Origin: Planctomycetaceae bacterium
Lineage (GTDB): Bacteria > Planctomycetota > Planctomycetia > Planctomycetales > Planctomycetaceae
DNA: 44,953 nucleotides
Direction of reading: 5' to 3'
Assembly (NCBI GenBank): GCA_021732845.1
Contig: JAKFUF010000066.1
Location: forward strand, 1 to 44,953
A model generated the notes under the pieces. That model was not told the DNA's origin, ran no database searches, and saw nothing but the letters and a program-made list of their open reading frames with translations. Within the stretch, counting starts at the first letter, position 1. Each line of letters opens with the position of its first letter. Below are positions 1 to 34,431 of this stretch, piece after piece. Both the position numbers and the translations under genes were made by a program.

Positions 1-87
1 CAGCTTTCGAGCGGCCTTGACAACGATCTCAGAGCCACTTAGGACATCGGAACCGACTTCCAGAATTTTTCTGGCGGCGTGAGCCAC
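1..87 (-). CDS. Possible 5' end of a thiamine-pyrophosphate enzyme (partial)
   Basis: A minus-strand reading frame opens at a GTG (85-87), just after an in-frame TAA, and runs off the left edge of the window. The 29 visible residues end with SGSEIVVKAARKL. This resembles the N-terminal segment of acetolactate-synthase-type thiamine-pyrophosphate enzymes, which usually begin with a [ST]GAEI.V.AL-like stretch before the first TPP-domain strand. There is no clear Shine-Dalgarno sequence and only a few residues to judge from, so this is a weak call. The other two minus frames here end at 29 and 39. If it is not a gene, the first 415 bases hold only the hairpin repeat at 317-373. Confidence 0.28.
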   Translation of the reverse strand, partial: MAHAARKILEVGSDVLSGSEIVVKAARKL

Positions 88-316
88 CGAGAAGCGGAAT
101 TACGAGGGTACTTTTGTCGGACACGTCGACCGTACGATTCCCGCACCGTTTTGCCAGGCCTGTCGACTTCACCACCAACTTCATTCGTTGTCCTTGATGG
201 CGTTCGCTGCTGGAGAGGGAGACAAATCTCACAGTTATTTTCGCTGCGATCCTTACATTTGAAAATGGCTTTTGTCGCCATTCCGGCAATTCGTACGGGG
301 TTGTGTTCCACAACAT

Positions 317-373
317 CCGAAAGGATGGAAAGGAGTTGTCGGCCGGCGGCCCACCCCTTTCCATCCTTTCCGG
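317..373. repeat. Long inverted repeat downstream of the first exported gene
   Basis: The arms are ccgaaaggatggaaagg (317-333) and its reverse complement with one extra G (356-373), giving a stem of about 17 bp around a GC-rich loop. It lies 43 bases past the stop of the minus-strand gene ending at 416. It could act as a transcription end or mRNA-stabilising hairpin, although no T-run follows. The core ggatggaaagg also appears, slightly altered, in the inverted repeat near 44.2 kb, so it may belong to a dispersed repeat family. Apart from this I see nothing in 88-415. Confidence 0.6.
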
Positions 374-415
374 CCTGAAGCCGCTGATGGATGGTGACCT
401 GAACGCCCTGCTCCA

Positions 416-2563
416 TTACGGCTTGGCGTCCCACAGGGAGTCTTCCAGGAACAGGTTTTCTTCCGTCAGCCCGGTCAGTTTCGGTCTGGGAATTGAGGCC
501 CCGGTCTGCGGGAAGACGCGGACTTCCAGATCGTACTTGAGAGCCAGGCCGGTGGATGTCGGCGGCAGCAGGAACACCAGCGGCGAAGCGGCGCCGGCCT
601 TGACCGTCACGGACTGCGAGCGGTCGACGGGCTTGACCGTTCCGCGGCTGTCCTTGGTGCTCCACTTGGCGGAGACCTTGATGAGGACCTGTTTGTTGTC
701 GCCCAGGATCCCCTCCGGGTCGAGCGTGATCACGCGGATGTTGGCCGTGGGCGAGGCCAGTGAACTCTCGCCCGCCTCCAGCGGAACCAGGTAGTCATAT
801 TCCAACTCGCCGCCGCCTCCCTTCTGCAGGATCTTGACGCTGACGCGGTATTGCAGCTTGTCAAACGCCTCCTTGCCCAGTTCTTCGTACTTCGCCGCGA
901 GCAGGAACTCGAGTTTTTGGACTTCGTCCATTTTGCCGCCGATCCGCTTCCAGCCGGCACCGGCATTGCGAACGCCCTGCTTGCCGCTGGTGAGCTGCGT
1001 CTTCCCGCTGGCGTCGATGACATCGACAAACAGGTCGACGCTGGCAATCTTCAAGCTTTCCAGTTCCGTGAGGCTCGGGAGGGCGAAGATCGCCTTGGAC
1101 CAGTTCCCTTCGCCCACGGTGCGGACCATGCCCTCGCGGGTCTCCTTGGGAAAGCCGCCGATGCCGATGAAGCCCCCGACCACCGTCGACTGTTCCTCAT
1201 AATTCTGGAACTGCATGTCGAACCGCAGTTTGGTCTTGTTGATGTCCTTGACCGACTTCATGGCGATGTTCGTCTCGGAGCGGATCACGGGAATGATGCT
1301 GGGCGAGTTGCCATCGGCCTCGGAACTCTCCTTGGCGTCGGCCCCTTCGGCCTTGGGATCATCCCCCTTGGGCTGATCTTCCGTCGGTTCGTCCTTGGGC
1401 TCATCATCCTTGGGCCTGTCTTCTTTGGACTTGTCTTCCTTTTTCTCGTCGCCTTTCTCGGGCTCTTTTTTCCCGTCACCCTTTTTGGGATCGGTTTTCT
1501 TCTTTTCCGTCCGCGCGCCGGCGATGGTGGCGTCTTCCTTTTTGATGTCGTCTGCTTTGGCGGCGTCTTTGATCTCCACCTTTTCAATCGGCGGGGCGTC
1601 GAAAATCCGCTTGTAGATCTGCTGCAGCAGCGGATCCATATACTTTGCAATGTCCTCCTTGTTGAAGTCTTTGGAAGCGACCACGGTCAGCTTCAACGAA
1701 CCGTCTTCAACCATGGAGTTGACAATCTCGGTGTTCTTCACGCCGACCGCCCCCTCCAGGTCCACGCCCATGATGTTGGCGGCAAAGCTGGTGCGGTGGT
1801 TCACCGACTTGCTGAAGTGCTCGTAGGTCTTCTCCCAGTCGACTTCAATGGAAAAGCCCGCCGGAGGAGTCACCCCGATGTAGCTGACTTCGTACATGAC
1901 CTGCAGTCCGGCGTTGCCTTCCGTGGTCAGCGCCTTGTAGACATCGGTGCCATTTTTGGTCAGCAGCAGCGTGAAGGGCATCGACTGCGTCCCGAATTTG
2001 GGGCCGGCCCCCTTTTCGACCGACGCGGTGGCGACAAACTTCCCCGGACCACCTGTCTCGCTGGGGGCAAACAGCGAGACCTTGCAGTCGCTGAAGGGCA
2101 CGCCCGAGAGTTGAATGGAGTCCTCGCCGAAGGGCACGCTGCCACGGGCCTTGACCACCACCGGATCACGGCTGCTGTTGAGCGCGGTCGCGATCTTCGT
2201 CCGCAGTCCCCGGGCCTCCTGCTGCTGCAGATCGAGCGTGGTGGCGAACTGCAGGATGCCCCCTTCGGCGGCGCCGTTCTCGTCGCCCGGGAGCTGGTAG
2301 CGGAGCAGCGAAAAGACCGGCTTGGCGCCGTTCATCATGATCCGCGGGTCGCTGGGGAAGTAGTACCACCGCAGCGGATCCTTGTGATCCATGATCACGG
2401 TGTAGCGGATGTCCTGCTCGATGTTGTCGTTCCCCTTCCGGGAAACGGTGAACGTTCGCGCGGCGGCCGGGTCGAGACTGGGGGCGGCCTTCGTGTGGGT
2501 GGCACTCGTCAGCAGCAGCGTCAGACAGGCCACGCTTCTGGCGAGCCTTGTGCGGGAGAACAT
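416..2563 (-). CDS. Exported beta-rich protein with charged linker, tandem paralogue of the next upstream gene
   Basis: This 715-residue protein has a signal peptide of about 27 residues ending THTKA. I chose the ATG at 2563 rather than the in-frame ATG at 2602 because AGGAG lies eight bases upstream and the signal peptide then starts at residue 1. No family is recognised. It is homologous to the neighbouring gene at 2653-4611: both share an N-terminal region of dense short strands, a segment of the type AGF.I.V.W.K...H.SK, and a C-terminal part with similar order. Unlike the paralogue it carries, at about residues 340-418, a disordered Lys/Asp/Glu-rich linker (KKxD, KEDRPKDDEPKD-like repeats). 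It is the last gene of a four-gene same-strand run of exported proteins, 89 bases after its paralogue. A structural or surface role is possible but is inference. Confidence 0.85.
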   Translation of the reverse strand: MFSRTRLARSVACLTLLLTSATHTKAAPSLDPAAARTFTVSRKGNDNIEQDIRYTVIMDHKDPLRWYYFPSDPRIMMNGAKPVFSLLRYQLPGDENGAAEGGILQFATTLDLQQQEARGLRTKIATALNSSRDPVVVKARGSVPFGEDSIQLSGVPFSDCKVSLFAPSETGGPGKFVATASVEKGAGPKFGTQSMPFTLLLTKNGTDVYKALTTEGNAGLQVMYEVSYIGVTPPAGFSIEVDWEKTYEHFSKSVNHRTSFAANIMGVDLEGAVGVKNTEIVNSMVEDGSLKLTVVASKDFNKEDIAKYMDPLLQQIYKRIFDAPPIEKVEIKDAAKADDIKKEDATIAGARTEKKKTDPKKGDGKKEPEKGDEKKEDKSKEDRPKDDEPKDEPTEDQPKGDDPKAEGADAKESSEADGNSPSIIPVIRSETNIAMKSVKDINKTKLRFDMQFQNYEEQSTVVGGFIGIGGFPKETREGMVRTVGEGNWSKAIFALPSLTELESLKIASVDLFVDVIDASGKTQLTSGKQGVRNAGAGWKRIGGKMDEVQKLEFLLAAKYEELGKEAFDKLQYRVSVKILQKGGGGELEYDYLVPLEAGESSLASPTANIRVITLDPEGILGDNKQVLIKVSAKWSTKDSRGTVKPVDRSQSVTVKAGAASPLVFLLPPTSTGLALKYDLEVRVFPQTGASIPRPKLTGLTEENLFLEDSLWDAKP

Positions 2564-2652
2564 GGAGATGACTCCTGAGAGGGATTCCTGAAAATGCTTC
2601 ATCGTGGACTGGGTGCCGGCCGGGACATGGCCCGCCGGCCGGACGGACGCGA

Positions 2653-4611
2653 CTATTCTCCAGCGCTTTCCTGGGCCGGCACCGGCGTCTCGGTTTCCTG
2701 CTTTTTGAACCAGTCGGGATCGTTGACCAGTTCGGAATCGAGGTACAAGCTGCCCTGGGTGAGCGTCCCCGTGCGGTTGATGCTGGTCACCTTCCCGTTG
2801 GCGCGGCCCACGAGCTTGGCGGTCACGGTGTATGATGGCATGCCGTCAGTCACCTTGACGGGAAACTGGTAGGCCGAGCCGTCCTTGAGAAACTTCTTAG
2901 TCAACCGGTTTATCTTAAGATGTTGTGGCTCAAACGCGCCGGTGGGGGTGACAATTGTCAGATCGACAATCGAAATCCCCTCCTCCTTGTTGCTGACGAT
3001 GTCCATCAACGCGGGATCGATTTCCACCATCCCCAGGTGATTGAGCGGCTGGAACAGCGGGACATTGCCGTTGAACATGGGGACGATCGCTTTGTGGTAG
3101 ATCGTGCCGGAATCGGTGCCGATCTTGTAATCCACCGTGCTGATCACCCGGAAACCCATCTTCTGCTTGAACGCATCCCCCAGCTTGTTGCGGAATGTTT
3201 CCAGGCCAAACGTCAACTGATCGGTCTCCATCCCCAGTGCCGCCTTGCTGCTCCCATACCTCCAGGCGCCCAGGCCCCCTTCCACCTTGTCGTTGGGGGT
3301 CCACGTCACCATTTCATTTTTGCCATCGGTCGTTTTGCCGTCGGTGGCCATCACCTGCAGCGTGACGCTGGTGATCCCCTGCGCCTTGCTGGTCGACAGC
3401 ACCGGCAGCGAAATCCGCGCGGATTCGTAGTTTTCATCGGTGACGGTGTCGGGAACCAGCAGCCGCTTGATGGCCGGGTCCTTCATGAACGCCCCGACCT
3501 CGATGAAGCCGGAGGCGGGCTGGGTGATGGAGAAGACTTCGCGGGCGTTGAAGTTCCAGGTCCGCGTCCCGGACGTGGTGATCTTGATCGTCTTTTCCAC
3601 CGTGTTGGTATTTTTGGTCAAGCCCCCTTGGTTGCTCTCGGCAGTGGCCGCGTCCGCTTTGGCCGGATCGACCTTCGGGGTGGCGTCGCCTCCCAGCTCC
3701 TTGGTGATCGCATCCAAAACCGGCTGCATGTAGCCGTTCAACTTGTCCGCCGGAAACGCCTTGCTGGAGGTCACATCGACCACCACGGCACTCGAATTCA
3801 CCAGCGATTCCGTCAGGGTGGTGGTGGATGTCTTTTTGTCTTCGCTGTTGGAGCTGAAGATCCACCAGCCACTGCGAATCTTCTCCGCCTCTTCCGTGTG
3901 CTTGCTGTAGTGATCGAACACCTTGCTCCAGTTCACGGTGATCTTGAAGCCCGCCGCCTCGCTGATGACATCGTAGTTGTAGACGAACGCGCAGGAGATG
4001 CCGGTGGTTCCCTCGGTCAGCTTGTTGGCCAATTGCGCGCTGATCACGTCCATTTTCACCGTGAACGGAATGTCCGCGTTCAGCGTTGTCGGCGACAGCG
4101 CCGGCGGCAGCCCCTTGCCCAGCTTCTCGCCCGTGACCGGGTCGTACACGCTCAGCACCGAATCGCGAATCGGAATCTGCTTGAGATTGATCTCCATCAG
4201 GTCGATGGGGCGGGTGATGGTCGGATCCTTGGGATCCGGGATCATCACCTGGGACTTGATGCCGTTCTTGATCTCGTCAAGTTCGGCGCCGCTCATTGCC
4301 AGGTTGACGGCAAACTGCATCACCGCCCCCTCCAGCAGGCCGTTGGCGTTTTCGGGGTCCTTGAACTGGAACCGCTGGAAGCGGTATTGCGGGACCGGCT
4401 TGCCATCCCGCATGGTCATCGTCAGCCGTGGCTTGCGCGGCAGGTAGAAAAATGTCTTCGGGTCGGCGTGGTCCTGATGAACGGTGACGCTTTGCACGGT
4501 GCCATTGAAGTTCACCGGAACGGAGTAGACTTTTTCAAAACTGGGGGTGGCCTGGGCGGCCCCTCCCAGCAGCAGCATGGCGAGCAGCGACAGCGGTAAG
4601 CGACGGCACAT
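2653..4611 (-). CDS. Exported beta-rich protein, paralogue of the 416-2563 product
   Basis: The 652-residue product starts at the ATG at 4611, where GGAG sits ten bases upstream and the encoded protein begins with a classical signal peptide (MCRRLPLSLLAMLLLGGAAQA). The longer frame to 4674 adds an N-terminal tail that would bury the signal. No known domain is recognised. The protein looks beta-rich and aligns along its length with the downstream gene, including FDHYSKH versus YEHFSKS and the EAAGFKITVNW versus PAGFSIEVDW strands. It lacks the long charged linker of that paralogue and has only a short Ala/Asp/Lys-rich segment near residues 330-345. The gene lies 76 bases after the kinase-like gene and 89 bases before its paralogue, so the group is probably one transcript. 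The function is unknown. Confidence 0.85.
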   Translation of the reverse strand: MCRRLPLSLLAMLLLGGAAQATPSFEKVYSVPVNFNGTVQSVTVHQDHADPKTFFYLPRKPRLTMTMRDGKPVPQYRFQRFQFKDPENANGLLEGAVMQFAVNLAMSGAELDEIKNGIKSQVMIPDPKDPTITRPIDLMEINLKQIPIRDSVLSVYDPVTGEKLGKGLPPALSPTTLNADIPFTVKMDVISAQLANKLTEGTTGISCAFVYNYDVISEAAGFKITVNWSKVFDHYSKHTEEAEKIRSGWWIFSSNSEDKKTSTTTLTESLVNSSAVVVDVTSSKAFPADKLNGYMQPVLDAITKELGGDATPKVDPAKADAATAESNQGGLTKNTNTVEKTIKITTSGTRTWNFNAREVFSITQPASGFIEVGAFMKDPAIKRLLVPDTVTDENYESARISLPVLSTSKAQGITSVTLQVMATDGKTTDGKNEMVTWTPNDKVEGGLGAWRYGSSKAALGMETDQLTFGLETFRNKLGDAFKQKMGFRVISTVDYKIGTDSGTIYHKAIVPMFNGNVPLFQPLNHLGMVEIDPALMDIVSNKEEGISIVDLTIVTPTGAFEPQHLKINRLTKKFLKDGSAYQFPVKVTDGMPSYTVTAKLVGRANGKVTSINRTGTLTQGSLYLDSELVNDPDWFKKQETETPVPAQESAGE

Positions 4612-4687
4612 GAGAAGTCGACTCCGGGTGGGTTGGTAAAGGGACTGCGCCGCCACACGCGGTGTGGATGGCAATCGTGGTGGTTAA

Positions 4688-6484
4688 TCAGGGATCGACG
4701 AAGACGAGGTCATCCAGAACGTCCGTGTCGCCGGTGCGATAGAACTCCAGTTTCAGGTTGTAGTTGAAGGGCGCGACCTTGGCCGGATCGGCCGGCAACA
4801 GGGAGTTCAGCGCGTCGGCGGCGCTCTTTCCCGCCCGGCGCGATTTCCAGTACGCGCGGCGGATGGCGAACCCCTCCGCCCAGGGGCCGGAAAGCGTGCT
4901 GCCCACCGGCCTGAAGGCGGCATCGTCCGTGATGCTGGCCAGGGCCGAGTCGATCCCGGCCTGCACCCGGGTCTGGAACACCTGCCAGTCGATCGTGGTG
5001 GCGCTGGTCTCGGCCTTGAGCCGGCCCTGGCCCTCGTCCTTCAGCGTCATCATGATCAGCAGCGGCCACTTGGACGAGGTGGGGCTGCACCTGTTTGTGT
5101 CGGCCGTGAGCCCGTTGGTCTCCTTCTGATCGGCGTCGCCCATCCTCGGTGCCAGCCGGTTGTTGACGGCACGCATCGACTCGACCATCTGCCGGACGGC
5201 ATCCTTGAACACCGCCGTCACCTTGGCGGCGGTGCCGGTCCCGGCATCCCGCGCCAGGACGCTCTCCAGCGCGGGGGTCAGCATGCCGGTGTCGAGCTTG
5301 CAGCCGTTGACGACGCTGGTCACCCAGTCGGCCCGGGAGAGGGGTGTCGACGGCCCCTCCAGCCGCTGCACCGAGAACGGCGGAGAATTGTCGGCCTGGG
5401 TGCGGCACTGCTCATATCTTGACTCGCGGAAATCCCGCAAGGCGAGCATCCGCGGATCGGCCGGGTCAGCCTGGTTGTCGATCGCCACCAGCGTGGCGTC
5501 CGGCGTCAGGATGAGATTGCCGGAATTGAGACCGAACTGGGTGCCGTCGGCCGACGGCTTGAAGCGGTCTTCATTCCCGAGAAACGCATCCAGCACGATC
5601 AGCCGGCCCAGAAACTGGGCCTGGCCGCCGTCTGTCGCCGCCAGCGCCTTGAGCAGCAACCGGGTCCCCTGCATCCGCGGTCCGTAGACCGTGGTCCAGT
5701 ATTTCACCAGCACCGCGCTTTTCTGCTCCACCACTTGATCCGCCAGCAGCGGGGTGCCGGGAGCCCGGCCCCTCAGATACGTCGCGGTCGGGCTGGTGTC
5801 GGACGCCGGCATCGCCTTGAGCAGCGCGGGTGCCAGCGACTCGACGTTGAAGGCCCCAAAGAGCTGCGAACAGGAACCGATGTCCGCCGCCGAGGGGATG
5901 AACTTCATGATCAGCAGGAACTTGCCATCGACCGCCTGCGGCGTGGGGGTGACCACGGGGGCCAGCCCCAGCGCGGTCGAATAGACCTGCTGCACGCGGT
6001 TGAAATCCGGATCGGTCGCCGGCTTGGCCAGGGCCGCCTGGCGGACGAGGTCCAGCGTGCCGGCGAACGTCAGCGGCTGCTTCGATTCAACCCGCTTGTT
6101 GCCGGAGTCGAGCACCAGCGACTGCGCCGCGGGAACACCCAGCTTCGCCAGCGCATAATCGGCGAAGGTGCCTCCGAACATGTTTTCGCCGGTGATCTTG
6201 ACGACCAGCTTGACCCCGGCCGAGTCCGTCAGAATCAGGACGCCGCCGCGCCCCTCACCCGGAGAATTCACGGCCCTGATGGCTTTCCATCGGAACGCCG
6301 GCTCGGGCGACGTCGCTGGCACCGCCGGTTGCCCGACCGGGCGGCGGATGCGGATCGAGGAAGATCGTCGCCGTGCCTCCTGTCCCGACGCGGGATTCGT
6401 CCACGGCAGCCCCGCCAGCACGACAAGGTACGCAAGGAGCGGGATGACGGAATTCCGTCGTGCAAACGAGCCGAGAAACCTCAT
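4688..6484 (-). CDS. Exported protein with actin-fragmin-kinase / PI3-4-kinase-like core
   Basis: The 598-residue protein begins at the ATG at 6484 (GAGG six bases upstream), with a signal peptide ending near NPASGQ (residues 30-35). Residues about 80-340 carry an ordered motif set resembling the actin-fragmin kinase family, a distant PI3/4-kinase fold: VKLVVKI with Lys96 (candidate ATP-anchoring lysine), LLIMKFIPS (about 191-198, hinge-like), LGRLIVLDAFLGNEDRF (292-308, with Asn304 and Asp306 as a candidate catalytic loop), NSGNLIL (320-326) and LVAIDNQ (332-338, candidate metal-binding Asp336). The C-terminal 250 residues are not recognised. What is seen is the motif order; kinase activity is inference, and a pseudokinase or non-kinase relative is possible. 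A signal peptide on such a fold is unusual. It lies between a coiled-coil protein gene and two paralogous exported protein genes. Confidence 0.8.
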   Translation of the reverse strand: MRFLGSFARRNSVIPLLAYLVVLAGLPWTNPASGQEARRRSSSIRIRRPVGQPAVPATSPEPAFRWKAIRAVNSPGEGRGGVLILTDSAGVKLVVKITGENMFGGTFADYALAKLGVPAAQSLVLDSGNKRVESKQPLTFAGTLDLVRQAALAKPATDPDFNRVQQVYSTALGLAPVVTPTPQAVDGKFLLIMKFIPSAADIGSCSQLFGAFNVESLAPALLKAMPASDTSPTATYLRGRAPGTPLLADQVVEQKSAVLVKYWTTVYGPRMQGTRLLLKALAATDGGQAQFLGRLIVLDAFLGNEDRFKPSADGTQFGLNSGNLILTPDATLVAIDNQADPADPRMLALRDFRESRYEQCRTQADNSPPFSVQRLEGPSTPLSRADWVTSVVNGCKLDTGMLTPALESVLARDAGTGTAAKVTAVFKDAVRQMVESMRAVNNRLAPRMGDADQKETNGLTADTNRCSPTSSKWPLLIMMTLKDEGQGRLKAETSATTIDWQVFQTRVQAGIDSALASITDDAAFRPVGSTLSGPWAEGFAIRRAYWKSRRAGKSAADALNSLLPADPAKVAPFNYNLKLEFYRTGDTDVLDDLVFVDP

Positions 6485-6629
6485 GAAGCACCTCTCTGGA
6501 GAACGGCCTGCAGCGCATCCACCAACCACATGACACTGCGGGAGGACATTTCGCCCGCGACCCAACCTGCACCCGTCCGAGCCACGCCGGGCATCAGCCC
6601 CGGAGTGGCGTGCACGCAGCGGCAGCCGA

Positions 6630-7805
6630 CTACTTCTTGCGGGTCAGTTCGTTCACGATCTCGTCCGCTGCCTTCTCCAAGGCGCCGAGCGCCACGGCCA
6701 CGGGATCGGTGACGGAGGCCAGCGTCAATGTCAGGTCGACGGCAGCCGTGACCTTCTTGCCATCGCGCGTCCGCTTGTCCGCGAGGTTCTTCTGGAAAAC
6801 CGTGGCCTGGGCCCGCCCCTGACTCAGGATCTGCCCGCAGACGCCGGTGAACTGCCGGCCGGCTTCGAGCCGCTCCTGGTTCAACACCACGATCCTGTCA
6901 ATCATCGCCGCGCACGCGCTCTCATAGGCCATCCTCTTCTTCTCATCGGTGTTCGCGGCGGCGGGAAACTTGTCCAGCTTCACCTCCAACTGCCGGGACA
7001 TCGCTTCGAGAGACAACTGCAGGGAGGTGAGCTTGTACTGATAGAGCAAAAGTTTCTTCTCGAGCGAGGCGTCCTTGGAGTCGGTGAACAGATCCTTGAA
7101 CCGCTGGGCGGTCGTCGGCGCGGCGGCGGGCTTCACCGCCGAAACCTGGTCGACATACTTCAGGAGCGACTCCTCGAGTTCGCAACGCGCCGTGACCTCG
7201 GAGATCAAACAGTCCTTCAGGTTCAGGATGATTTGCTTCGACCGCTTCACGAAGTCGATGACCTCCACCGGACCGGTGGCCCCCTGGCTGGCAATCGTGG
7301 TGGCCAGGGCGAACGTGTTGAAGGCCGTATCCCTGATGATTTCGTAGGCCATCTTGATCTTCCACTTCCTCAGCTCCTCCTTTTCCTTCAGCAGGGCGTC
7401 GAATTTCTTCTGCAGTTCATACTCGACGGCCGACTTCGAGAATTCCGCGAGGACCTCGTACTTCGTGTTCAAAGCGAAAATCGCCTGCTGCTTCTCATCA
7501 TTCGTGGCCCCCTTTTTGGCGATGATCTTGTCGGCCGCCGCCACGAGCTTGACGATCTCCCGGTTGATCTCGCCAATGACCGGCGAAGCCTGGTCGCGCA
7601 GTTGCTGCTCCAGCAGGGGAGACATCGTGGATGCCTTCTGATCGGAGGAGATCGTGATTCGAAATTTAGAAACCGCCTCGTTGATGCGGTTGTCCTTGAT
7701 GTCCTGGCTCAGCACAAAATCGATGTAGATCTCATCCGCGTGGACCAGGGAATGCGAGAAAATGAGGCAGAGAATCGCACCCATCATTCCGGACTTGAAT
7801 GGCAT
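6630..7805 (-). CDS. Exported alpha-helical coiled-coil protein, unknown function
   Basis: The 391-residue product starts at the ATG at 7805, which has AAGGA eight bases upstream. The ATG at 7814 would place that site too close. Residues 1-23 form a signal peptide (GMMGAILCLIFSHSLVHA). The rest is almost entirely helical, with long charged heptad-like stretches (for example KFDALLKEKEELRKWKIK around residues 135-152 and LEKKLLLYQYKLTSLQLS around 250-268) and a short hydrophobic segment near residues 165-180 (TAFNTFALATTIASQG). It ends ELTRKK. No family is recognised. It is the first gene of the four-gene exported-protein group, 145 bases ahead of the kinase-like gene. A periplasmic scaffold role would fit, but nothing proves it. 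Confidence 0.8.
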   Translation of the reverse strand: MPFKSGMMGAILCLIFSHSLVHADEIYIDFVLSQDIKDNRINEAVSKFRITISSDQKASTMSPLLEQQLRDQASPVIGEINREIVKLVAAADKIIAKKGATNDEKQQAIFALNTKYEVLAEFSKSAVEYELQKKFDALLKEKEELRKWKIKMAYEIIRDTAFNTFALATTIASQGATGPVEVIDFVKRSKQIILNLKDCLISEVTARCELEESLLKYVDQVSAVKPAAAPTTAQRFKDLFTDSKDASLEKKLLLYQYKLTSLQLSLEAMSRQLEVKLDKFPAAANTDEKKRMAYESACAAMIDRIVVLNQERLEAGRQFTGVCGQILSQGRAQATVFQKNLADKRTRDGKKVTAAVDLTLTLASVTDPVAVALGALEKAADEIVNELTRKK

Positions 7806-8277
7806 CAGTGGCATCCTTCAATGTGGAGATCTGGATGACCCGCGAAAAGACGACGGCGGCGGCGAACAACCCCGGTGCCCAACCCGTACGATTCGGGCGG
7901 CGCAAGGATGTGGCGGCGATAATCCATGGCAGATGACCGCCCGCTGACGGCGGTTTTGAGCCAGCGGCTCATCTCTACAATCGCGGCCACCGTGCGAAAC
8001 CGTCGCGCAACTTGCCGACTTTCAATTCCGCGCTGGTCCGTTTCGTGTCATTCACGGTAGTAGCGGGTGGAACAGCCACGACTCATTTTGCCGATCGGCT
8101 GTCCGTGACAGAAATGTGGCATCTGCCCATCGAGTCAATCTCGGATTCCGCATGGCGTTGACCGCGCCCTCAAAATGACCATGAAAGCGGATCGTTGCAT
8201 CGGCTTTAGCATTCCGATGCTTCATCGATCGAATCATTGAGCCAGCGTCGTTATGGGAATCCGGTGTTCCAGCCGGC
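7806..8277. other. Intergenic region with no gene seen
   Basis: These 472 bases separate the end of the prepilin peptidase gene from the start of the coiled-coil protein gene, both on the minus strand. The short ORFs in either strand have no coding look and no ribosome binding sites. The region should contain the promoter of the four-gene exported-protein group, but I could not pick a convincing -35/-10 pair. Confidence 0.6.
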
Positions 8278-9357
8278 TTACGTTGAACTTGAAGGACCTT
8301 TTTCCCGCGCCTGCGCGGGGATCATCCGATACAGCCGGATGGCTCCCAGCAGCACGATCAGCCCGGTGAGGGTGATGCCGCCCAGTTGGGCCAGCATCCA
8401 GGGGTCGCCAAATGCCTTGCGGGTGGGCAGCCACAGCCAGCGCCAGGTGCAGAGGACGATCACCGTGGCCGCACAGAGGTACGGTCCGTAGGGGACGGCA
8501 CGGCGGGCGCTGGCCAGTTGCAGGGTCAGCCCGATCACCAGGCCGCACAATGGGGCGATCAGAAACACGCAAACAATCGGTTGCCAGCCGAGGAAGCTGC
8601 CGATCATCGCCATCAGTGTCACGTCGCCGAACCCCAGGGCTTCCATCCCCAAAATCCAACCGGACAAAACACGGACGAGCCACGTGAGCCCGCCACCCAC
8701 CGTGGCTCCCGCCAGACTCCACGCCAGGCCATGCCAGTGGGCGTGCAGCTTGATCCATTGCGGGATCAGCGGCCCGTTGAGGGGGACCATGGGATCGTTC
8801 CAGTCGATCCAGGCGGGGATGAACTGAATATGTCCGAAGAAACAGGCGGTGCTCACGCCAAGGATCGCACCGGTCAAGGTGATCTCATCGGGGATCAGAT
8901 AGTGCTGCAGATCGATGACCGTGGCCGCCATCAGCACCACGATCAGCAGCAGTTGCACACCCATGCGGGCATGAAACCAATCAATGCTGCCGCCTTCCGT
9001 CAGGCTCTGCCCACCCCAGTGGGTCAGTGAGCCACACAGGAGTAGAAACAACCCGGCGGTCGCGAGTTCCGTCGCCAGCCGGCCGCCACCGGCCCCTCTC
9101 CATTCCGCGCAGGTGGCACAGGGCGGGGTTCGCCTCCACAGCGTGGAGAGCGGCAGCCACTGCCAGCCCGCGGTGGCTCCGCAGGCCGGACAGACCCGTT
9201 GGCTCAGCAACGGCTGCTCGGCCGCCAGCCGCTGGCACCATTCCCAGACCCAGCCGCCGGCGAGCAGCCCCATCGGGACCAGGACCAATGCCTGCAGGCC
9301 CAGGGACCCTTCTGTCGCGAAGTCGAACAGCCAGCGGTTCAGTTGCGTCAACAGCAT
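8278..9357 (-). CDS. Type IV prepilin peptidase (aspartic, A24 family)
   Basis: This is a 359-residue polytopic membrane enzyme that cleaves the leader of type IV prepilins or pseudopilins and usually N-methylates the new N-terminus. The visible motifs are two zinc-type cysteine pairs in the N-terminal cytoplasmic loop (CPAC at 56-59 and CATC at 80-83), the first catalytic aspartate in VIDLQHYLIPDE (Asp149), and the GFGD motif with the second catalytic aspartate (Asp245), surrounded by about eight hydrophobic segments. The insertion between the two aspartates (about residues 175-210) is longer than usual. The start ATG overlaps the TGA of the upstream DUF1501 gene in a TGATG arrangement, so translation is probably coupled; a GTG three bases earlier is an alternative. 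No pilin or pilus assembly gene is in the window. Confidence 0.93.
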   Translation of the reverse strand: MLLTQLNRWLFDFATEGSLGLQALVLVPMGLLAGGWVWEWCQRLAAEQPLLSQRVCPACGATAGWQWLPLSTLWRRTPPCATCAEWRGAGGGRLATELATAGLFLLLCGSLTHWGGQSLTEGGSIDWFHARMGVQLLLIVVLMAATVIDLQHYLIPDEITLTGAILGVSTACFFGHIQFIPAWIDWNDPMVPLNGPLIPQWIKLHAHWHGLAWSLAGATVGGGLTWLVRVLSGWILGMEALGFGDVTLMAMIGSFLGWQPIVCVFLIAPLCGLVIGLTLQLASARRAVPYGPYLCAATVIVLCTWRWLWLPTRKAFGDPWMLAQLGGITLTGLIVLLGAIRLYRMIPAQAREKGPSSST

Positions 9358-10966: not shown

Positions 10967-13900
10967 TCACTTCGTTCCCACGGCCGTCGCCTCCTCTAGA
11001 AACTTCCGCAGGCCCTTCACCGGGACCGCGAAGGCCGTGGCCTCGTTGGTGGTCGCCTTGAGTACAACCAGTCCAATGACCCGACCGGAAGAGTCGAACA
11101 TCGGGCCGCCGCTCGTCCCGGCATTGATCGGTGCCGAAGTTTGAATGTACTCCTGCCCCTCAAACATTCGGCTCACGCTGCTGATGACTCCGGTGGTGAG
11201 GGTCCGCGAGAGAATCTCGTCGCCCAGACCCGGATTGCCGATGACAGTGACAGACTCGCCCGCCGCTCCTGCACTGGCCACGCCGAGGACAACGCACGAC
11301 AGCGGGGGCGATTTGATCTTGAGCAGGGCGAGGTCGCGGTCGGTGTCGACCCGCACGAGTGAGGCTACGGCAGTCTCTGGCTTTTCCTTCCCCACAACGC
11401 TGTAGGTCACCGAAATCTCCCCCTCATCGGCCAGGACATGTGCGCAGGTGAGGACCAAGCCGTCCTTGCCGACGGCAAAGCCGGTCCCAGTCCCTTTGGA
11501 TGTGGTGATCAGCACGATCGAATCGGCATAGAGCGTGTTGATCTCGCGGGCGCTCAACGATTCCGTCTTGCCAGCCTGCTTGAGGGCGTCGACCTCGGAG
11601 CGGAGGATTCTGACCAGATTCTGCTTTTGTTTGGGCGGGCCGGCGGCATCCACCGGCACGGCGGCAGCCACTTCCGCCGCCTTAGCCACCCCCTTGGCGG
11701 CGGTCGCTTGCTCCTCCTTGGTGAGCCTCAGGCCGACTCGTCGCAAATAGCGCCCATCCAGATCATTGCAATCAAAAATCAGCCCCGTTCCGTCAGCGGA
11801 GAAGAACAGCTCTTCCACTTTGACCTCGCCGAGCCCCTGGCTGGTGAGCTGCAGTTTGTCCTTGAGTTCGGTGCCCTTTTCCCGGTCGAACAGCACTGCC
11901 GAGCCGCTCCCAGGGATCGCGACAATCGGAAGCGTGGGGTGGAACGCCAACAGCTTGGTGGTACCCCGGCCTTTGACCGCATAGGTCACTGGAGTGTCCT
12001 TCAGCCTCATCGGATTCCAGGCAACGAGGTTTTCTGAATGCACGGGAGTACCAACATGCGACAGATAGGTGATGCGTTTGCCGTCTGCCGACAGGACGAT
12101 GCCCGCCCCGTTGCCACCGGCCTGCGCCTGGATGTCCACCGGCTTCAGCCGCGGGGTTTTCAGGTCGTAGGTGATCACCCAGTCGATGTTGTCGTACTTG
12201 GGGGATTCGATGATCTGAAAGCCGGGATTGACGTGAAAATCCGTTCCAATCCGGTAGAGGTCTTCGAAGCCCGAATACAGGTATCGGCCGGCAGGATCGA
12301 TCCTGAGCCACTTGGCGATGGCGCTCTCCGGTGCCTCAAGCTTGCCGGTCGACTCATTCACAATCATGAACCGGTAGCGTGGCACCTCTGTGCTGTGCCT
12401 GAACGCGATGTAGCTCACCGGCTTGGTGGGGTGCGGCACCATGTCCGTGATTTCCAGAATGCGGACCACCCCCAGGTCGAGCTTGATGCTTTTCCGCACC
12501 TTGTTCGTCTTGCGGTCGATGATGTCGAACTGGTTCGGATCGTTCGAAACCGCCAGCAGGTCGGTGCCACGCGTGGCGATTAGTTGGTAACGCTTCGGAA
12601 GCGTCTGGTCGCTGACCACCTTCAGGCCGGTGCCTCCCAGCTCGCGCAGCCGGTCTCCCTGCAGCAGCAGGAGCGAGGCGTGATTTTGCGAAGGAACCAG
12701 GACGACGTTGTCGACCTCCAGCGGCAACCGTTCCCCCTTGTCTGCGGCGGCGAGTGAACCGGCCGAGGCAATCAGTTCCTTGTCGACCACCTCCAGCCGT
12801 GGACGGACAATGTTGATCTTCGTCCCGGCCTTGATGCGGACCTTGAGTTCATGCGGGCCGATCTGCTCTTTGGTGGTGGCCCAGGTGAGCCGGCCCGCTT
12901 TGGTCAACTGCAACCCCTCGGGACCGCCCAGCAGCTCAAATTCCGCGCCCGCTTCAGCCGTCATGGTCGTGTCGAGCTTCGTCCCGTCGGCAATCCGCTT
13001 AGGCAGGCCCCATTCGTCCAGATCGGCCACTGGTGCGCCAGGCTTGGTGCCGGCGATGGCCGACGGGGCAAGTTGGACGCCGCTGGCTGGCGGCGTGACG
13101 ATGGCGGCGGTGCGTGCCGCCACGATGCAGTTCTTGGCACCGTCGAGCATGAACAGGTGCAGATTTGGCCCGTGCGTGTAGGCCTGCGGAGTGTCCAGCG
13201 TGTAATGCCTGTGTCGTTCAATGACTTTAATGATGCCCGCGTAATCTTCGTTCCTGGGCTGCCATTGGATGGGACGCTCGCCGATCACCGCCAGGGTCGC
13301 ATCCAGACGGTGGGCACGAACGGCCTTCTCGTTAATGGAATACAGGACCCGCTGGGAAAGGTCGGGAATGATCCGCCCCCCCAAGTCACCGGGGATCTTG
13401 ACGCAGTTGGGAACACCGCCGACCACGACATTTCCGCCGTACCACAAGGGACCAGGATGCTCCTGAGAAACGTATCCCAAACTCTCTCTGTCTCCCCGAA
13501 AGATCGGCGACGCATTCCGGCCCACATAGGCGGCTTGGGGAAAACCGCCGATACCGCCCGCCGGACTGAGGTTAAAGGAGCCCTGCGTGACAACGATTTT
13601 TCCGTCGTAGCTGTAGGTGGCGACCGAGTCGGCCCGCGCCAGTTTGCGGTGTTTGTCCAGCTTCGTGTCAACGAGGATGTTGGCGACGTCACTATACGAA
13701 CCAGTGGGGCCTTGGCCGTGGGACGTGGCCAGGAGTTCGTCCTTGAAAAACTCACCGCGCGGGGCAGAGATGTGAACGATGTTCTTGCTGCCGGTTTCGA
13801 ACTGGTTGACGAGTTCCCAGTTCTTGTCGCGGGCAAACAGGCTGATGGTGCCCTCGCCATTGTTGATGACAAACACCTTGTTGCCGCGGCACATCACAAA

Positions 13901-15931
13901 CCGCGGCGCCGGCGTCTCAATCGTCTTCACCACCTTGTCCGCCAGCACATCCCACACGGAAAGCGAATTCGACCCTTGGTGAGCCACAATGAGGTGCTTT
14001 CCGTCCTCGGTCAGCGCCATCGCCGATGCCAGGTCCGCCAGTTCCAAAACTCGTGGCTCAATCACATTTGGGTCCGGCTTTTCGGTACCAGCGGGCATTG
14101 GCGAAGTGGCTGGATTCGCCGGCTGTTCCGATGGAGTTAGTGTCGGCAACGAGGATACACCCGCCAGGAGAACGCCGCCCGCCGGGGGCGTGGCGAGGGC
14201 GGCGGTCCGTGCCATCAGGATGCGGTCCTTGGCCCCGTCGATCATGAACAGGTGCAGGTTCAGTCCATGGGTGTAGGCCAGCGGAATGTCGAGCGTGTAA
14301 TGCTTGTGTCGTTCGACAACGTTGGCGATGCCTGTGTAGTCCTCTTTCTTGGGCTGCCAGCGGATGGGTCGCTCGCCAACGAGTGCCAGGGTCGGGTCGA
14401 GACGGTGCGCACGAAGAGTCTGGTCGTTGATGGCATAGAGCACCCGCTGGGAAAGGTCGGGGATGATTCGTCCCCCCAACTCCGCCGGAATGTTCACGAA
14501 GTTGGGAGCACCAGCCATCACCACATTCCCGCCGTACCACAGCGGCCCCGGATGCTCCTGGGAGATGTAGCAGCCACGCTCCATTGCCCCGGCAAAGATC
14601 GGGGTGGCCTTGCCGCCCACGTAGGCCGTCTGGGTAAAACCGCCAATTTCCCCGCTCGAACGGAAGGGACTCTGAGTGAGAATCACTTTGCCATCGTAGC
14701 TGTAGGTCGCAACCGCCGCGGCCTGTGCGAGGTTGCGGTATTTGGCCAGTTTGGTGTCCACGAGCACGTTGGACACTCCTCGTTCAGAGCCATCAGCCCC
14801 CGGCCCGTGACAGGTGGCGATCAGTTCATCCTTGAAGAATTCGCCGCGCGGGGCGGAAATGTGGACAATGTTCTTGCTGCCGGTTTCGAATTTTTTGACG
14901 AATTCCCAGTTCTTGGCCCGCGAAAACATGCTGATGGTGCCCGCCCCGTTGTTGACGGCAAACACCTTGTCGCCGCGGCACATCACAAACCGCGGGGCGG
15001 GCGTGGCGACGGTCTTCACCAGTTTTTCCGCGAGTACGTCCCAGACAGAGAGCGTGCTGGTCACCTGGTGAGCCACGATGAGATATTTTCCGTCTTCGGT
15101 CAGTGCCATCGCCGAGGCCAAATCCGGCAACACCATCACCCGGGGCTCAATCAAGTTCGCGTCCGCACTGCCGGCTTTTCCAGGCGCAGTTGCGACCGGG
15201 GCGGGTGTCGTCGTCATGGGGGTGGAAGTTGGTTTCGTCCCCTCAAGCGGAATGAGCCGCGGGTTTCCCCAAAAGGCCCAGGCAAAGTTCGCCATTCCGG
15301 CGCAGTGGCATTCCAGCCGCAGTTGGTCGACCCCTTCAACCGATACATCGCACTCCACCGCGTCGCCGTGTTTCTGCAGTGGCTTGGATTCCCACAGCAC
15401 CTTGCCGTCGCCGACAACGCGGAACCGCAGTGGTGCCAGCGCCTTGCCCGTCCAGCCGAGCCTCATCGCCAGCGCCAGGCCATCGTCGGGCGTTGGGTAC
15501 GTCAGTGCCGCCAGAGTCAGCAGACGCCGGTATTTCTTTCCCAAGCCATAGGCGACGACGGCATCCTTTTCCTGTGTCGGATGGGTCGACAGGGCATGCT
15601 TCAATTCCGTTGAGCCAATCCGGCAGTGTTTGACATCCTCGCCTGGATAAGATGTCTCGCCGTGCTTTCCCAATTTCTGGTTGAGTGTGGTGTAGCCCGT
15701 TTCCTGAAGGTCGTCCACAAAGACAGCGTTCGGCTCCTCGGCTGTGGCTGCGGCCTCCAGCTTCCGGGATGGCCGCTGTGCCTGAGCCGCTGGCGAGCAA
15801 CAAACCAACACGGCGGTTATCGCCAGGCAAGTCCCGATCCAACGGCCCCGGCCGAAGCCGCGCTTCGCCTTCAATTCCAACCGTGCCACCGACAAGAATG
15901 GGTTCACGTTCCGGGCTCCCAGGAGGATCAC
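10967..15931 (-). CDS. Giant exported NPCBM / tandem beta-propeller / trypsin-like serine protease
   Basis: The 1654-residue protein starts with a basic N-region and a signal peptide ending CSPAAQA|Q (about residue 51). Residues about 75-230 resemble an NPCBM/NEW2 carbohydrate-binding module. Residues 258-590 and 622-950 are two near-identical propeller-like units sharing DLASAMALTEDGK, LSVWDVLA and SAPRGEFFKDEL. A cadherin/Ig-like linker (about 970-1050) leads to a further propeller-like region. The C-terminal domain (about 1465-1654) is an HtrA-type trypsin fold with a complete triad: His1498 in TCAHVL, Asp1533 in DRDLALLK, Ser1607 in GTSGGPMF. No PDZ domain is visible. The frame opens with GTG at 15931; a GTG at 15907 with GGGAG eight bases upstream is an equally good start. 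It is probably a secreted or surface protein with a regulated protease. Confidence 0.88.
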   Translation of the reverse strand: MILLGARNVNPFLSVARLELKAKRGFGRGRWIGTCLAITAVLVCCSPAAQAQRPSRKLEAAATAEEPNAVFVDDLQETGYTTLNQKLGKHGETSYPGEDVKHCRIGSTELKHALSTHPTQEKDAVVAYGLGKKYRRLLTLAALTYPTPDDGLALAMRLGWTGKALAPLRFRVVGDGKVLWESKPLQKHGDAVECDVSVEGVDQLRLECHCAGMANFAWAFWGNPRLIPLEGTKPTSTPMTTTPAPVATAPGKAGSADANLIEPRVMVLPDLASAMALTEDGKYLIVAHQVTSTLSVWDVLAEKLVKTVATPAPRFVMCRGDKVFAVNNGAGTISMFSRAKNWEFVKKFETGSKNIVHISAPRGEFFKDELIATCHGPGADGSERGVSNVLVDTKLAKYRNLAQAAAVATYSYDGKVILTQSPFRSSGEIGGFTQTAYVGGKATPIFAGAMERGCYISQEHPGPLWYGGNVVMAGAPNFVNIPAELGGRIIPDLSQRVLYAINDQTLRAHRLDPTLALVGERPIRWQPKKEDYTGIANVVERHKHYTLDIPLAYTHGLNLHLFMIDGAKDRILMARTAALATPPAGGVLLAGVSSLPTLTPSEQPANPATSPMPAGTEKPDPNVIEPRVLELADLASAMALTEDGKHLIVAHQGSNSLSVWDVLADKVVKTIETPAPRFVMCRGNKVFVINNGEGTISLFARDKNWELVNQFETGSKNIVHISAPRGEFFKDELLATSHGQGPTGSYSDVANILVDTKLDKHRKLARADSVATYSYDGKIVVTQGSFNLSPAGGIGGFPQAAYVGRNASPIFRGDRESLGYVSQEHPGPLWYGGNVVVGGVPNCVKIPGDLGGRIIPDLSQRVLYSINEKAVRAHRLDATLAVIGERPIQWQPRNEDYAGIIKVIERHRHYTLDTPQAYTHGPNLHLFMLDGAKNCIVAARTAAIVTPPASGVQLAPSAIAGTKPGAPVADLDEWGLPKRIADGTKLDTTMTAEAGAEFELLGGPEGLQLTKAGRLTWATTKEQIGPHELKVRIKAGTKINIVRPRLEVVDKELIASAGSLAAADKGERLPLEVDNVVLVPSQNHASLLLLQGDRLRELGGTGLKVVSDQTLPKRYQLIATRGTDLLAVSNDPNQFDIIDRKTNKVRKSIKLDLGVVRILEITDMVPHPTKPVSYIAFRHSTEVPRYRFMIVNESTGKLEAPESAIAKWLRIDPAGRYLYSGFEDLYRIGTDFHVNPGFQIIESPKYDNIDWVITYDLKTPRLKPVDIQAQAGGNGAGIVLSADGKRITYLSHVGTPVHSENLVAWNPMRLKDTPVTYAVKGRGTTKLLAFHPTLPIVAIPGSGSAVLFDREKGTELKDKLQLTSQGLGEVKVEELFFSADGTGLIFDCNDLDGRYLRRVGLRLTKEEQATAAKGVAKAAEVAAAVPVDAAGPPKQKQNLVRILRSEVDALKQAGKTESLSAREINTLYADSIVLITTSKGTGTGFAVGKDGLVLTCAHVLADEGEISVTYSVVGKEKPETAVASLVRVDTDRDLALLKIKSPPLSCVVLGVASAGAAGESVTVIGNPGLGDEILSRTLTTGVISSVSRMFEGQEYIQTSAPINAGTSGGPMFDSSGRVIGLVVLKATTNEATAFAVPVKGLRKFLEEATAVGTK
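13082..14068 (-). repeat. Second copy of an internal gene duplication
   Basis: This codes for residues about 622-950 of the propeller-protease and matches the block at 14162-15160 both in protein and clearly in DNA (for example the segments coding SAPRGEFFKDEL and ISQEHPGPLWYGG, here VSQEHPGPLWYGG). The two copies are separated by a Pro/Ala/Ser-rich linker of about 30 residues. Confidence 0.85.
14162..15160 (-). repeat. First copy of an internal gene duplication
   Basis: This codes for residues about 258-590 of the propeller-protease. It aligns with the 13082-14068 block over its whole length with only small gaps, which indicates a fairly recent tandem duplication of a roughly 1-kb exon-like unit inside one gene. 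Confidence 0.85.
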
Positions 15932-17725: not shown

Positions 17726-17989
17726 GGTTCAATCCCGACAAGCTCAGACATTTTGTATGGAGAATATAGCATGTTTTGTCGGCCCCTGAGCCACGGGAGT
17801 GGGCGGCAATGACGCGAAACGCGTCGGACTTGGTCGGGTTCGGTCATGGATGGCAATTGGGTCTGAACTCGCATTGTGGGACACTGATGTTTATTCTGGG
17901 ACTCGCCGCCCTGCACTGCCTTGATGCGCCTCAAGCGGGTGTGCAACGGTTTCCGCGAAGAAGTCCCGATTCCACTGGCCGAGGTCTGT

Positions 17990-19222
17990 ATGCCGTTGTT
18001 TCGTCGTGTCGCTGTGGTTCTCTGGGCAGTTGCCGCGACTCTGACCATCACTGGGTTTTCAGGATGCAATTCGGCCACCACCAGCACCGCCGGCCCCAAG
18101 GTGATCAAGATCGTCTCCAGCCTGCCGCGGACAGGCAGTGCCAAGGCTCAGACAGACACAATCGTCAACGGCATCAAGCTCGCCTTTGATGAAGCCAGCC
18201 ACAAGGCCGGCGAATTCACCATCGAGTACTCCGACCTGGATGATGCCACGGCGGCTGCCGGGCAATGGACCGCGGAGGCCGAAACGGCGAACGCCCAGCG
18301 GGCGGTCAAAGACCCTGATGTGATGATCTACATCGGCACCTACAACTCCGGCGCGGCAAAAATCTCCATGCCGATCCTCAACCAAGCGGGATTGATGATG
18401 CTCAGCCCCGCGAACACCTGGCCCGGCCTCACCAAGCCCGGCAAGGGCGACCCGGGGGAACCGGAAATCTACCGTCCGACGGGCAAGGTGACCTACCTTC
18501 GCGTCGTTCCCGCCGATGACCTGCAGGGTCCGCTGGGGGCGAAGTGGGCCCAGGAAATGGGCGTCAAAAAAGTCTTTATTCTCGACGACAACGAGGTCTA
18601 TGGCCGGGGCATCGCCCAACTGTTTGAAGAGGCCTGCGAAGACCTGAAGATCGAGGTCCTGGGGCACGAGAGCATTGATGCCAAGGCGCAGGAGTTCAAA
18701 TCGCTGATGACCCGCATCAAGGGGTTGAAGCCGGACATGATCTATTTCGGCGGCACCACGCAGTCCAAGGGCGGGCAGGTCGCCAAGGACATGGTCTCCG
18801 CCGGGCTCGAGTGCAAGCTGATGGTGCCGGACGGCTGCCGGGAAGATGCATTCATCCAGTCGGCCGGGGCCGAAAACCTCAACGACCGCTGCTTCGTGAC
18901 GTTTGGCGGCCTGCCGCCGGAAGAACTGACCGGCTCCGGCAAGGAATTCGTCGAACGCTATACCAAGAAATATGGGGGCCAGCCGGAAGCCTACGCGATC
19001 TATGGCTATGAATGCGCCAAGGTCGCCCTGGCGGCCATTGCGAAGGCCGGCAAAAAGGACCGTGCCGCGATTCTGGAAGCCGCGATCTCGATGAAGGATT
19101 TCAAAGGCGCGCTTGGCGAATGGACCTTCGACGCCAACGGCGACTCAACGCTCACCACGCTCAGCGGCAGCGTCGTCAAGGACGGCAAGTTCGAGTTCGT
19201 GAAGGTGCTGGGAGAGAAGTAG
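17990..19222 (+). CDS. Branched-chain amino acid/amide ABC transporter substrate-binding lipoprotein (LivJ-like)
   Basis: This 410-residue periplasmic-binding protein is of the type I, LivJ/UrtA/FmdD-like class. The start ATG at 17990 has GAGG five bases upstream. It begins with a lipoprotein signal whose lipobox is FSGC (Cys26), so it is probably tethered to a membrane. Typical features are KVIKIVSSLPRTGSA at the mature N-terminus, YIGTYNSGAAKISMPILNQ, and VFILDDNEVYGRGIA followed by the MIYFGGTTQSKGG strand. The ligand could be a branched-chain amino acid, another amino acid or an amide. Two permease genes follow on the same strand, 105 bases downstream, separated by an AT-rich inverted repeat. 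Confidence 0.92.
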   Translation: MPLFRRVAVVLWAVAATLTITGFSGCNSATTSTAGPKVIKIVSSLPRTGSAKAQTDTIVNGIKLAFDEASHKAGEFTIEYSDLDDATAAAGQWTAEAETANAQRAVKDPDVMIYIGTYNSGAAKISMPILNQAGLMMLSPANTWPGLTKPGKGDPGEPEIYRPTGKVTYLRVVPADDLQGPLGAKWAQEMGVKKVFILDDNEVYGRGIAQLFEEACEDLKIEVLGHESIDAKAQEFKSLMTRIKGLKPDMIYFGGTTQSKGGQVAKDMVSAGLECKLMVPDGCREDAFIQSAGAENLNDRCFVTFGGLPPEELTGSGKEFVERYTKKYGGQPEAYAIYGYECAKVALAAIAKAGKKDRAAILEAAISMKDFKGALGEWTFDANGDSTLTTLSGSVVKDGKFEFVKVLGEK

Positions 19223-19230
19223 GCGAGGTC

Positions 19231-19330
19231 ATTTTCGATTTTCGATTGAGGATTTTCGATGGCCTCATCGAATTCGCTGCCGCTTTTTTCCAATCGAAAA
19301 TCAAAATTCGAAAATCGAAAATCGAAAATG
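19231..19330. repeat. AATCGAAAAT-type inverted repeat spanning the livH start
   Basis: The left part (19231-19260) is made of attttcgat units and the right part (19291-19330) of their reverse complement, aatcgaaaat, repeated four times with small changes. The two parts could pair into a long hairpin. The last unit supplies the ATG of the downstream permease gene. The composition is far more AT-rich than the surrounding coding DNA. Confidence 0.75.
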
Positions 19331-20254
19331 TGGGAAACCTTTCTCCAGCACTGTCTCATCGGCCTGACCAACGGGTCGCTGTTCGCGCTGATCGCGCTCG
19401 GCTACACGATGGTCTATGGCATCATCGAACTGGTCAACTTCGCCCACGGTGACCTGTTCATGCTGGGGTGCTTTCTGGCCTTCACGCTGTTGGCGTGGCT
19501 CGGCCTGCAAGGGGCCGGACCGGTCTGGACGCTCGTGGGAATCGGCTTGATTCTCATCATCGTCCCGATCTTCTGTGGCTCACTCAACGTCGCCGTCGAT
19601 CGGATCGTCTATCGGCCCCTGCGTGGGGCTCCCAAGTTGGCTCCGCTGGTCTCCGCCATCGGTGTGTCGTTTGTGATGATGAATGTCGGGCTGTTCTGGG
19701 GTGGAGCGGCGGACCTCAACTTTCCAGATCTGATCTCACAGAACCTGTCGAACCACAACCTGCTGGGGAACTCGCCGATTCAGTTCACACCCAAGGATCT
19801 GATGGTGATCGCCACGACCGTGCCGATCATGATCGTGCTGACGCTGTTCGTGCAGTTCACGAAGCTGGGCAAGGCGATGCGCGCCACGGCTCAGAACCCG
19901 GTCGCCGCGCAGCTCATGGGCATCAACGTCGATCGCGTGATTGGAGCCACGTTCGCCATCGGCGGCGGACTGGCCGGCGCGGCCAGCGTGATCTATGCCC
20001 TGTACATCAACACCATCAGTTTTCAGATGGGATTCCAAAACGGGCTGTACGCCTTCACCGCGGCGGTGCTGGGCGGTATCGGCAAGATTCCCGGCGCGGT
20101 GCTGGGCGGACTGGTGATCGGCCTCGTCCGCGCGCTCGGCAGTGGCTACATCGGCGAAAAGTGGACCAGCCCGCTGATCTTCATGATCCTGATCGTGATC
20201 CTCGTGTTCCGCCCCACCGGCCTGCTCGGTGCCCAGACGCGGGAGAAGGTGTGA
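19328..20254 (+). CDS. livH: Branched-chain amino acid/amide ABC transporter permease, LivH type
   Basis: The 308-residue membrane protein belongs to the LivH permease family. It has about eight hydrophobic segments, the family start LIGLTNGSLFALIALGYTMV and the loop YGIIELVNFAHGDLFMLG near residues 28-45, and the cytoplasmic coupling motif TKLGKAMRATAQNPVAAQLMG (EAA-like) near residues 178-198. The ATG at 19328 fits the usual LivH N-terminus; the longer frame from 19259 would translate the repeat DNA. There is no Shine-Dalgarno sequence, because the repeat runs up to the start codon. The stop overlaps the start of livM (TGATG). No ATP-binding subunit gene is next to it. Confidence 0.93.
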   Translation: MWETFLQHCLIGLTNGSLFALIALGYTMVYGIIELVNFAHGDLFMLGCFLAFTLLAWLGLQGAGPVWTLVGIGLILIIVPIFCGSLNVAVDRIVYRPLRGAPKLAPLVSAIGVSFVMMNVGLFWGGAADLNFPDLISQNLSNHNLLGNSPIQFTPKDLMVIATTVPIMIVLTLFVQFTKLGKAMRATAQNPVAAQLMGINVDRVIGATFAIGGGLAGAASVIYALYINTISFQMGFQNGLYAFTAAVLGGIGKIPGAVLGGLVIGLVRALGSGYIGEKWTSPLIFMILIVILVFRPTGLLGAQTREKV

Positions 20255-34294: not shown

Positions 34295-34431
34295 GCGGCT
34301 CTCCTGAATACCTGCTACGGACTTCTGGCCTGAACGTGTTAATATAGACAGACCCGGGACGGTGCCTTGATAACACGTCGTGTCGCTGAATGCCAGTTTC
34401 GGGGGTGAAAAACCGTGAGTCCGAGGATTCG

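Follow-up and report, generated by a model that had tools for sequence, protein, structure and literature searches.

Four consecutive genes, g1 to g4, lie on the minus strand between positions 7805 and 416 of a 44,953-base stretch of a Planctomycetaceae bacterium (hereafter the window; C50:1-44953 of a 9.25-Mb genome in 262 contigs, here G000). We propose that they form a lineage-specific cluster of probably exported proteins with a rare and patchily distributed protein family at its core, named here family B (g3 and g4), accompanied by an orphan actin-fragmin-kinase-like enzyme (g2); a probability of about 0.5 is given to this reading. The cluster was probably assembled locally rather than conserved as a machine. 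The genes are:

6630 to 7805, minus strand: g1, 391 amino acids (alternative ATG at 7814), predicted exported, probably mostly helical; orphan.
4688 to 6484, minus strand: g2, 598 amino acids, predicted exported actin-fragmin-kinase-like protein.
2653 to 4611, minus strand: g3, 652 amino acids, predicted exported; family B paralogue without charged linker.
416 to 2563, minus strand: g4, 715 amino acids (alternative ATG at 2602), predicted exported; family B paralogue with charged linker.

Third-position GC ranges from 0.83 to 0.87 across the four genes (0.85 in g1), which therefore look coding. Each N-terminus begins with basic residues, continues with a hydrophobic run and has a plausible site for cleavage; these calls were made by eye and by a crude hydropathy scan rather than by a dedicated signal-peptide predictor. 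The gaps, re-measured, are 145 (g1/g2), 76 (g2/g3) and 89 bases (g3/g4), the last one being 50 if g4 starts at 2602. Hence, the layout given by the initial annotation, four same-strand genes with gaps of 76-145 bases, all encoding proteins with signal peptides, is recovered. Its view of g3 and g4 as tandem paralogues holds as well (27% identity over 344 amino acids, E 5e-26, and a second segment with E 2e-6). The window begins where the contig begins, and g4 ends 415 bases from this edge.

The distribution of family B was examined in genomes of the phylum, where three of 392 carry it (G000, G108 and G145, a profile giving the same result), in the order of G108 (2/6 genomes) and in the family to which the window belongs (2/170, G000 and G525). 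These genome searches scored only some first-look candidates in part of the genomes, so that weak relatives could have escaped detection. The family B members of G145, G108 and G525 share with g3 and g4 an exported-looking N-terminal domain (pairwise BLAST identities of about 22-28%) but, unlike the window, have other neighbors and no match to g1 or g2 (0/3 genomes, two of them being 79-84% complete). With g1 and g2 as queries, phmmer returned nothing in the frames of the G145 and G108 stretches or in those of the initial 16 kb of the G525 contig, and the best E-value against the whole G525 contig was 0.37. The genomes of G145 (79% complete) and G108 (84%) are fragmented, the contigs concerned being 8,114 and 13,976 bases long. 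Because family B had other partners in each of these three genomes, a conserved self-contained system is not supported. The initial annotation had described a self-contained secreted system: its kinase-like member and its pair of paralogues stand, whereas the expected co-occurrence of the four genes elsewhere was not found, B lying apart from the others in 3/3 genomes, which leans towards the refuting condition named in that annotation; no homologues of g1 and g2 were found to which such a check could apply.

These data also bear on the view that g1 to g4 are a true operon for a single secreted system, with g2 phosphorylating g3 and/or g4. The four genes are consecutive on the same strand, all have signal-peptide-like starts, and none of the three gaps contains a terminator-like site; promoter- and terminator-like sites in the region 1-8400 are no commoner than in shuffled sequences. 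However, the four genes occur together in no other genome searched, B is without a g1 or g2 match in three other genomes (two of them incomplete), the gaps are moderate, and a charged tract is also present in the G108 relative without any g2 relative beside it. Co-transcription is possible, and the operon as one secreted system is rather unlikely.

From its sequence, g2 is very likely a protein kinase-like protein; the single matches are not significant by strict standards, and this estimate is a judgement on all of them together. The actin-fragmin kinase family PF09192 matches the 625-amino acid open reading frame of g2 with E 0.0041 (17.0 bits) and its 293-amino acid kinase region with E 6.6e-4 (19.6 bits). 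Furthermore, when a 61-amino acid catalytic segment was searched against 177,635 distinct PDB sequences, the only match at E<=10 was the actin-fragmin kinase 1CJA (E 1.3, or 3.4 for the aligned stretch). The alignment covers 54 residues with short gaps only (1CJA 187-238) and places NEDR, N320/N323 and D336 of g2 opposite NSDR, both N of NLDN and the D of PIDS. The key residues given for the protein-kinase-like superfamily in PMC1821047 include K72, E91, D166, N171 and D184; through the 1CJA alignment, D166, N171 and D184 have equivalents in D306, N323 and D336. The candidate sites are the following:

6194 to 6205, minus strand: candidate ATP-binding lysine K96, residues 94-97 (VVKI), assigned by eye by analogy to protein-kinase-like key residues.
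5561 to 5602, minus strand: candidate catalytic loop (D306), residues 295-308 (LIVLDAFLGNEDRF), aligned with NNSDR of 1CJA.
5513 to 5527, minus strand: candidate metal-binding N323, residues 320-324 (NSGNL), aligned with NLDN of 1CJA.
5471 to 5488, minus strand: candidate metal-binding D336 (DFG-equivalent), residues 333-338 (VAIDNQ), aligned with PIDSK of 1CJA.

The most likely interpretation of these motifs is that g2 acts as an exported phosphotransferase of the protein-kinase-like kind, is catalytically active and has a catalytic segment of the actin-fragmin-kinase type. The kinase-like character noted initially is therefore retained, with evidence that is weak but concordant (motif, PF09192, 1CJA).

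Several points weigh against our interpretation of g2 and of the locus. The PF09192 score stays under the curated cut-off of 24 bits, and no glutamate could be assigned in the helix-C segment FADYALAKLG (107-116), where D109 is a possible equivalent of E91. Searched against PDB sequences, the 625-amino acid frame gave one unrelated match only (E 0.41), the 293-amino acid kinase region gave none, and a 45-amino acid catalytic piece did not return 1CJA. An AlphaFold2 (AF2) model of residues 55-480 from the single sequence has a predicted local distance difference test score (pLDDT) of 34.9, and Foldseek with this low-confidence model found nothing at E<=0.001; 11 of the 50 rows shown were kinases or phosphotransferases by title, all with E of at least 0.45. 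The predicted export of g2 argues against a normal ATP supply. As regards the locus, the gaps between the four genes are longer than in the adjacent clear operon pair (10772-9357 and 9360-8278, overlapping by 4 bases) and do not prove one transcript; moreover, no linkage to a mobile element was seen in the window, such an element being inferred for G525 only.

Some of these points would fit a catalytically dead g2, or a non-kinase with a chance likeness to the actin-fragmin kinase loop, the cluster then being a set of unrelated orphan secreted genes. The sub-threshold PF09192 score, the 1CJA match at E 1.3 that is lost with a shorter piece, the model with a pLDDT of 35 and the lack of convincing homologues all agree with this. 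Nevertheless, the NxDR motif, N and D are all aligned over 54 residues with short gaps, 1CJA is the sole PDB match at E<=10 for the 61-amino acid segment, and a plausible K96 lies upstream. We consider a dead or unrelated protein clearly unlikely and retain the kinase.

As for the relatives of g2, two of 59 related genomes gave matches (the own one and a 47-amino acid piece in G007), three of the 170 family genomes (the own one and two short pieces) and, at E<=0.01, six of the 392 phylum genomes (the own one and five short pieces). G007, G213, G305 and G071 were rejected as carriers of a kinase relative, their realignments ending at g2 residues 68, 99, 154 and 93, before the catalytic segment 295-338. 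G172 was discarded too, with a 69-amino acid open frame with a stop (frames of at least 60 amino acids gave a best E of 0.35), and G492 has a weak short match (E 0.009, 54 amino acids). No relative of g2 was found in viral contigs by scanning, nor in plasmids or phages by tblastn. A search with PF09192 was uninformative, with 0/149 phylum genomes (own included) and 0/14 controls. In the literature searched, which includes few subscription papers, nothing on secreted kinases in planctomycetes was found.

Compared with known systems, g2 shares with the actin-fragmin kinase of Physarum polycephalum (1CJA, PF09192) the NxDR ... N ... D segment (E 1.3) and a partial PF09192 match; it differs in scoring under the PF09192 cut-off, in its predicted export and in matching over the catalytic segment only. 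Secreted kinases of the Fam20C/CotH kind are exported kinases. The idea of an exported kinase is shared by g2, for which no Pfam match to such families is reported. HipA-type proteins are presented in PMC8262856 as bacterial kinases of the protein-kinase-like kind, and HipA toxin-antitoxin systems as having an adjacent antitoxin gene that is usually DNA-binding. Unlike HipA, g2 is predicted to be exported, has no reported HipA Pfam match and adjoins no recognizable antitoxin gene: its neighbors g1 and g3 look exported and have no Pfam family over cut-off, though either might be an orphan antitoxin.

Within family B, one feature distinguishes g4 from g3:

1259 to 1573, minus strand: Lys/Asp/Glu-rich linker of g4, about residues 331-435, with 21 K, 17 D, 14 E, 6 S, 5 T and no Y in 105 amino acids.

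A degenerate 15-base repeat occurs at 1351-1415 in the linker region. The linker is found in g4 alone of the pair. In the G108 relative, a separate acidic/lysine-rich tract lies at another place in the protein, with no g2 relative adjoining. The earlier suggestion that the kinase modifies the charged linker is thus not borne out, g3 being devoid of it and the G108 tract being without a neighboring kinase.

No library family matched g1, g3 or g4 over the curated cut-off; in PHROGs and PADLOC, which are listed without such cut-offs, the best E-value for all four proteins was 0.079. An AF2 model of g3 built with four sequences has a mean pLDDT of 48.4; ten-residue blocks range from 46 to 89 between residues 21 and 240, the better-modelled ones (70-89) lying in the N-terminal part. 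Foldseek with this model found nothing in the PDB at E<=0.001. The best fold match by VIA-align (Z 5.8) falls inside the noise range stated for the tool, and a family B profile run against PDB sequences had a best E of 2.6; both were rejected. In a viral library, a protein of Medusavirus stheno (A0A7S7YF07) was the only match at E<=0.001 (Foldseek E 1.5e-6, probability 1.00). With template modelling (TM) scores of 0.19/0.27, a root-mean-square deviation of 12.6 and a model with a mean pLDDT of 48, this match is a lead only.

Together with the description in PMC3415841 of actin-fragmin kinase as a slime-mould enzyme, the Medusavirus match could evoke proteins acting on eukaryotic microbes, predators or partners, by means of an exported actin-fragmin-kinase-like enzyme and a B domain resembling a protein of an amoeba virus. 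However, the structural superposition is as poor as given above, and nothing resembling a delivery machinery was seen next to the genes, no search having been aimed at such machinery. We regard an action on eukaryotes as very improbable.

In favor of a rare and patchy family, two of the other genomes have B next to DNA that seems to be mobile (G525) or diversifying (G108). In G108, a diversity-generating retroelement (contig C519, L008, 1139-6629) consists of a variable FGE-sulfatase-domain protein, an HRDC protein, bAvd and a reverse transcriptase. Its template and variable repeats are 118 bases long, all 15 mismatches (15/15) fall at template adenines, and 206 bases separate the template repeat from the start of the family B gene that follows it. 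In G145, an FGE-sulfatase-domain protein is encoded upstream, and bAvd has no match in the genome. Two bAvd matches occur in G525, on other contigs than B, one of them over the cut-off. For the window, no bAvd match was found in G000, and a link with a retroelement is not claimed. In both G145 and G108, B adjoins proteins A, C and D. The A proteins of the two genomes are homologous, as are the C proteins; these neighbors of B are mostly exported-looking, the C frame of G145 having no clear signal peptide. The D proteins (G108, L008 11618-12766; G145, L007 7626-8114) are exported-looking and their layout recalls, by eye, that of B, no relation being detected by phmmer.

In G525, the contig carrying B (C74, JAFEBS010000077.1, SZAS-6; L021/L033/L034) is 48,577 bases long and appears to be an integrative element. 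The B gene, a 454-amino acid frame and hence shorter than g3 and g4, lies at the left contig edge with a gene for a 673-amino acid exported-looking protein. The contig also carries a RepA-family gene (PF10134) and genes for a ParA-like ATPase, a phage integrase and a protein with a Ser/Thr kinase domain. A 22-base direct repeat is located near both ends (at 4 and 48,552) and looks, by eye, like the 3' portion of a tRNA gene; no tRNA was called by ARAGORN in either end stretch. A scan of genome contigs with the alignment of the G525 relative and g4 returned only this contig itself (metagenome-assembled genome SZAS-6), and a scan with g3 found no relative. Viral-contig scans with alignments A2 and A5 gave none. 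In tblastn searches, which covered g2, g3 and the G525 relative, g3 was not found in plasmids, nor the G525 relative in plasmids or phages.

For g1, no family was found over cut-off or at a convincing E-value in Pfam, NCBIfam, PHROGs or PADLOC. Matches were obtained in 2 of 170 family genomes, the own one and a 74-amino acid piece in G023 (E 0.009, internal stop), and no relative in 7 chosen genomes, a search run without positive control. The initial annotation had seen a coiled coil in g1: the composition is compatible with one, but the helical moment does not exceed that of shuffled sequences (z 0.9), and a coiled coil is not claimed. Nor is a pore former, as g1 has no strongly hydrophobic 19-residue stretch; an internal repeat was not supported.

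In our proposal, g3 and g4 would be members of a secreted family that is rare, patchy in its distribution and found with different partners elsewhere, once on mobile-looking DNA, and may act as accessory envelope or surface proteins. The kinase g2 would phosphorylate a protein that shares its compartment, whether its neighbors or an outside target, and g1 could be a helical partner or scaffold. A broader scheme, in which an exported bacterial kinase of the actin-fragmin type acts on secreted partners or eukaryotic neighbors while family B moves on integrative elements and can come to adjoin a retroelement, is quite improbable. If g2 is active and exported, an actin-fragmin-kinase-like enzyme would work in an unexpected place, in a bacterium and outside the cytoplasm, with g3 and g4 as ready candidate substrates. 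Family B is itself of interest, being exported-looking and without a match over cut-off in the libraries scanned. Even as an ordinary lineage-specific set, these genes correct the reading as a self-contained system.

Other genes of the window encode proteins of varied kinds. On the minus strand, 10967-15931 encodes a 1654-amino acid protein with an NPCBM domain, two beta-propeller-like stretches and a C-terminal trypsin-like protease domain, and 33797-34921 a formaldehyde-activating enzyme domain (PF08714, E 8.8e-73) that follows a 213-amino acid N-terminal extension. On the plus strand, 17921-21405 encodes a periplasmic binding protein (PF13458) and then a branched-chain-type permease (PF02653) in a 645-amino acid frame with a long N-terminal part.

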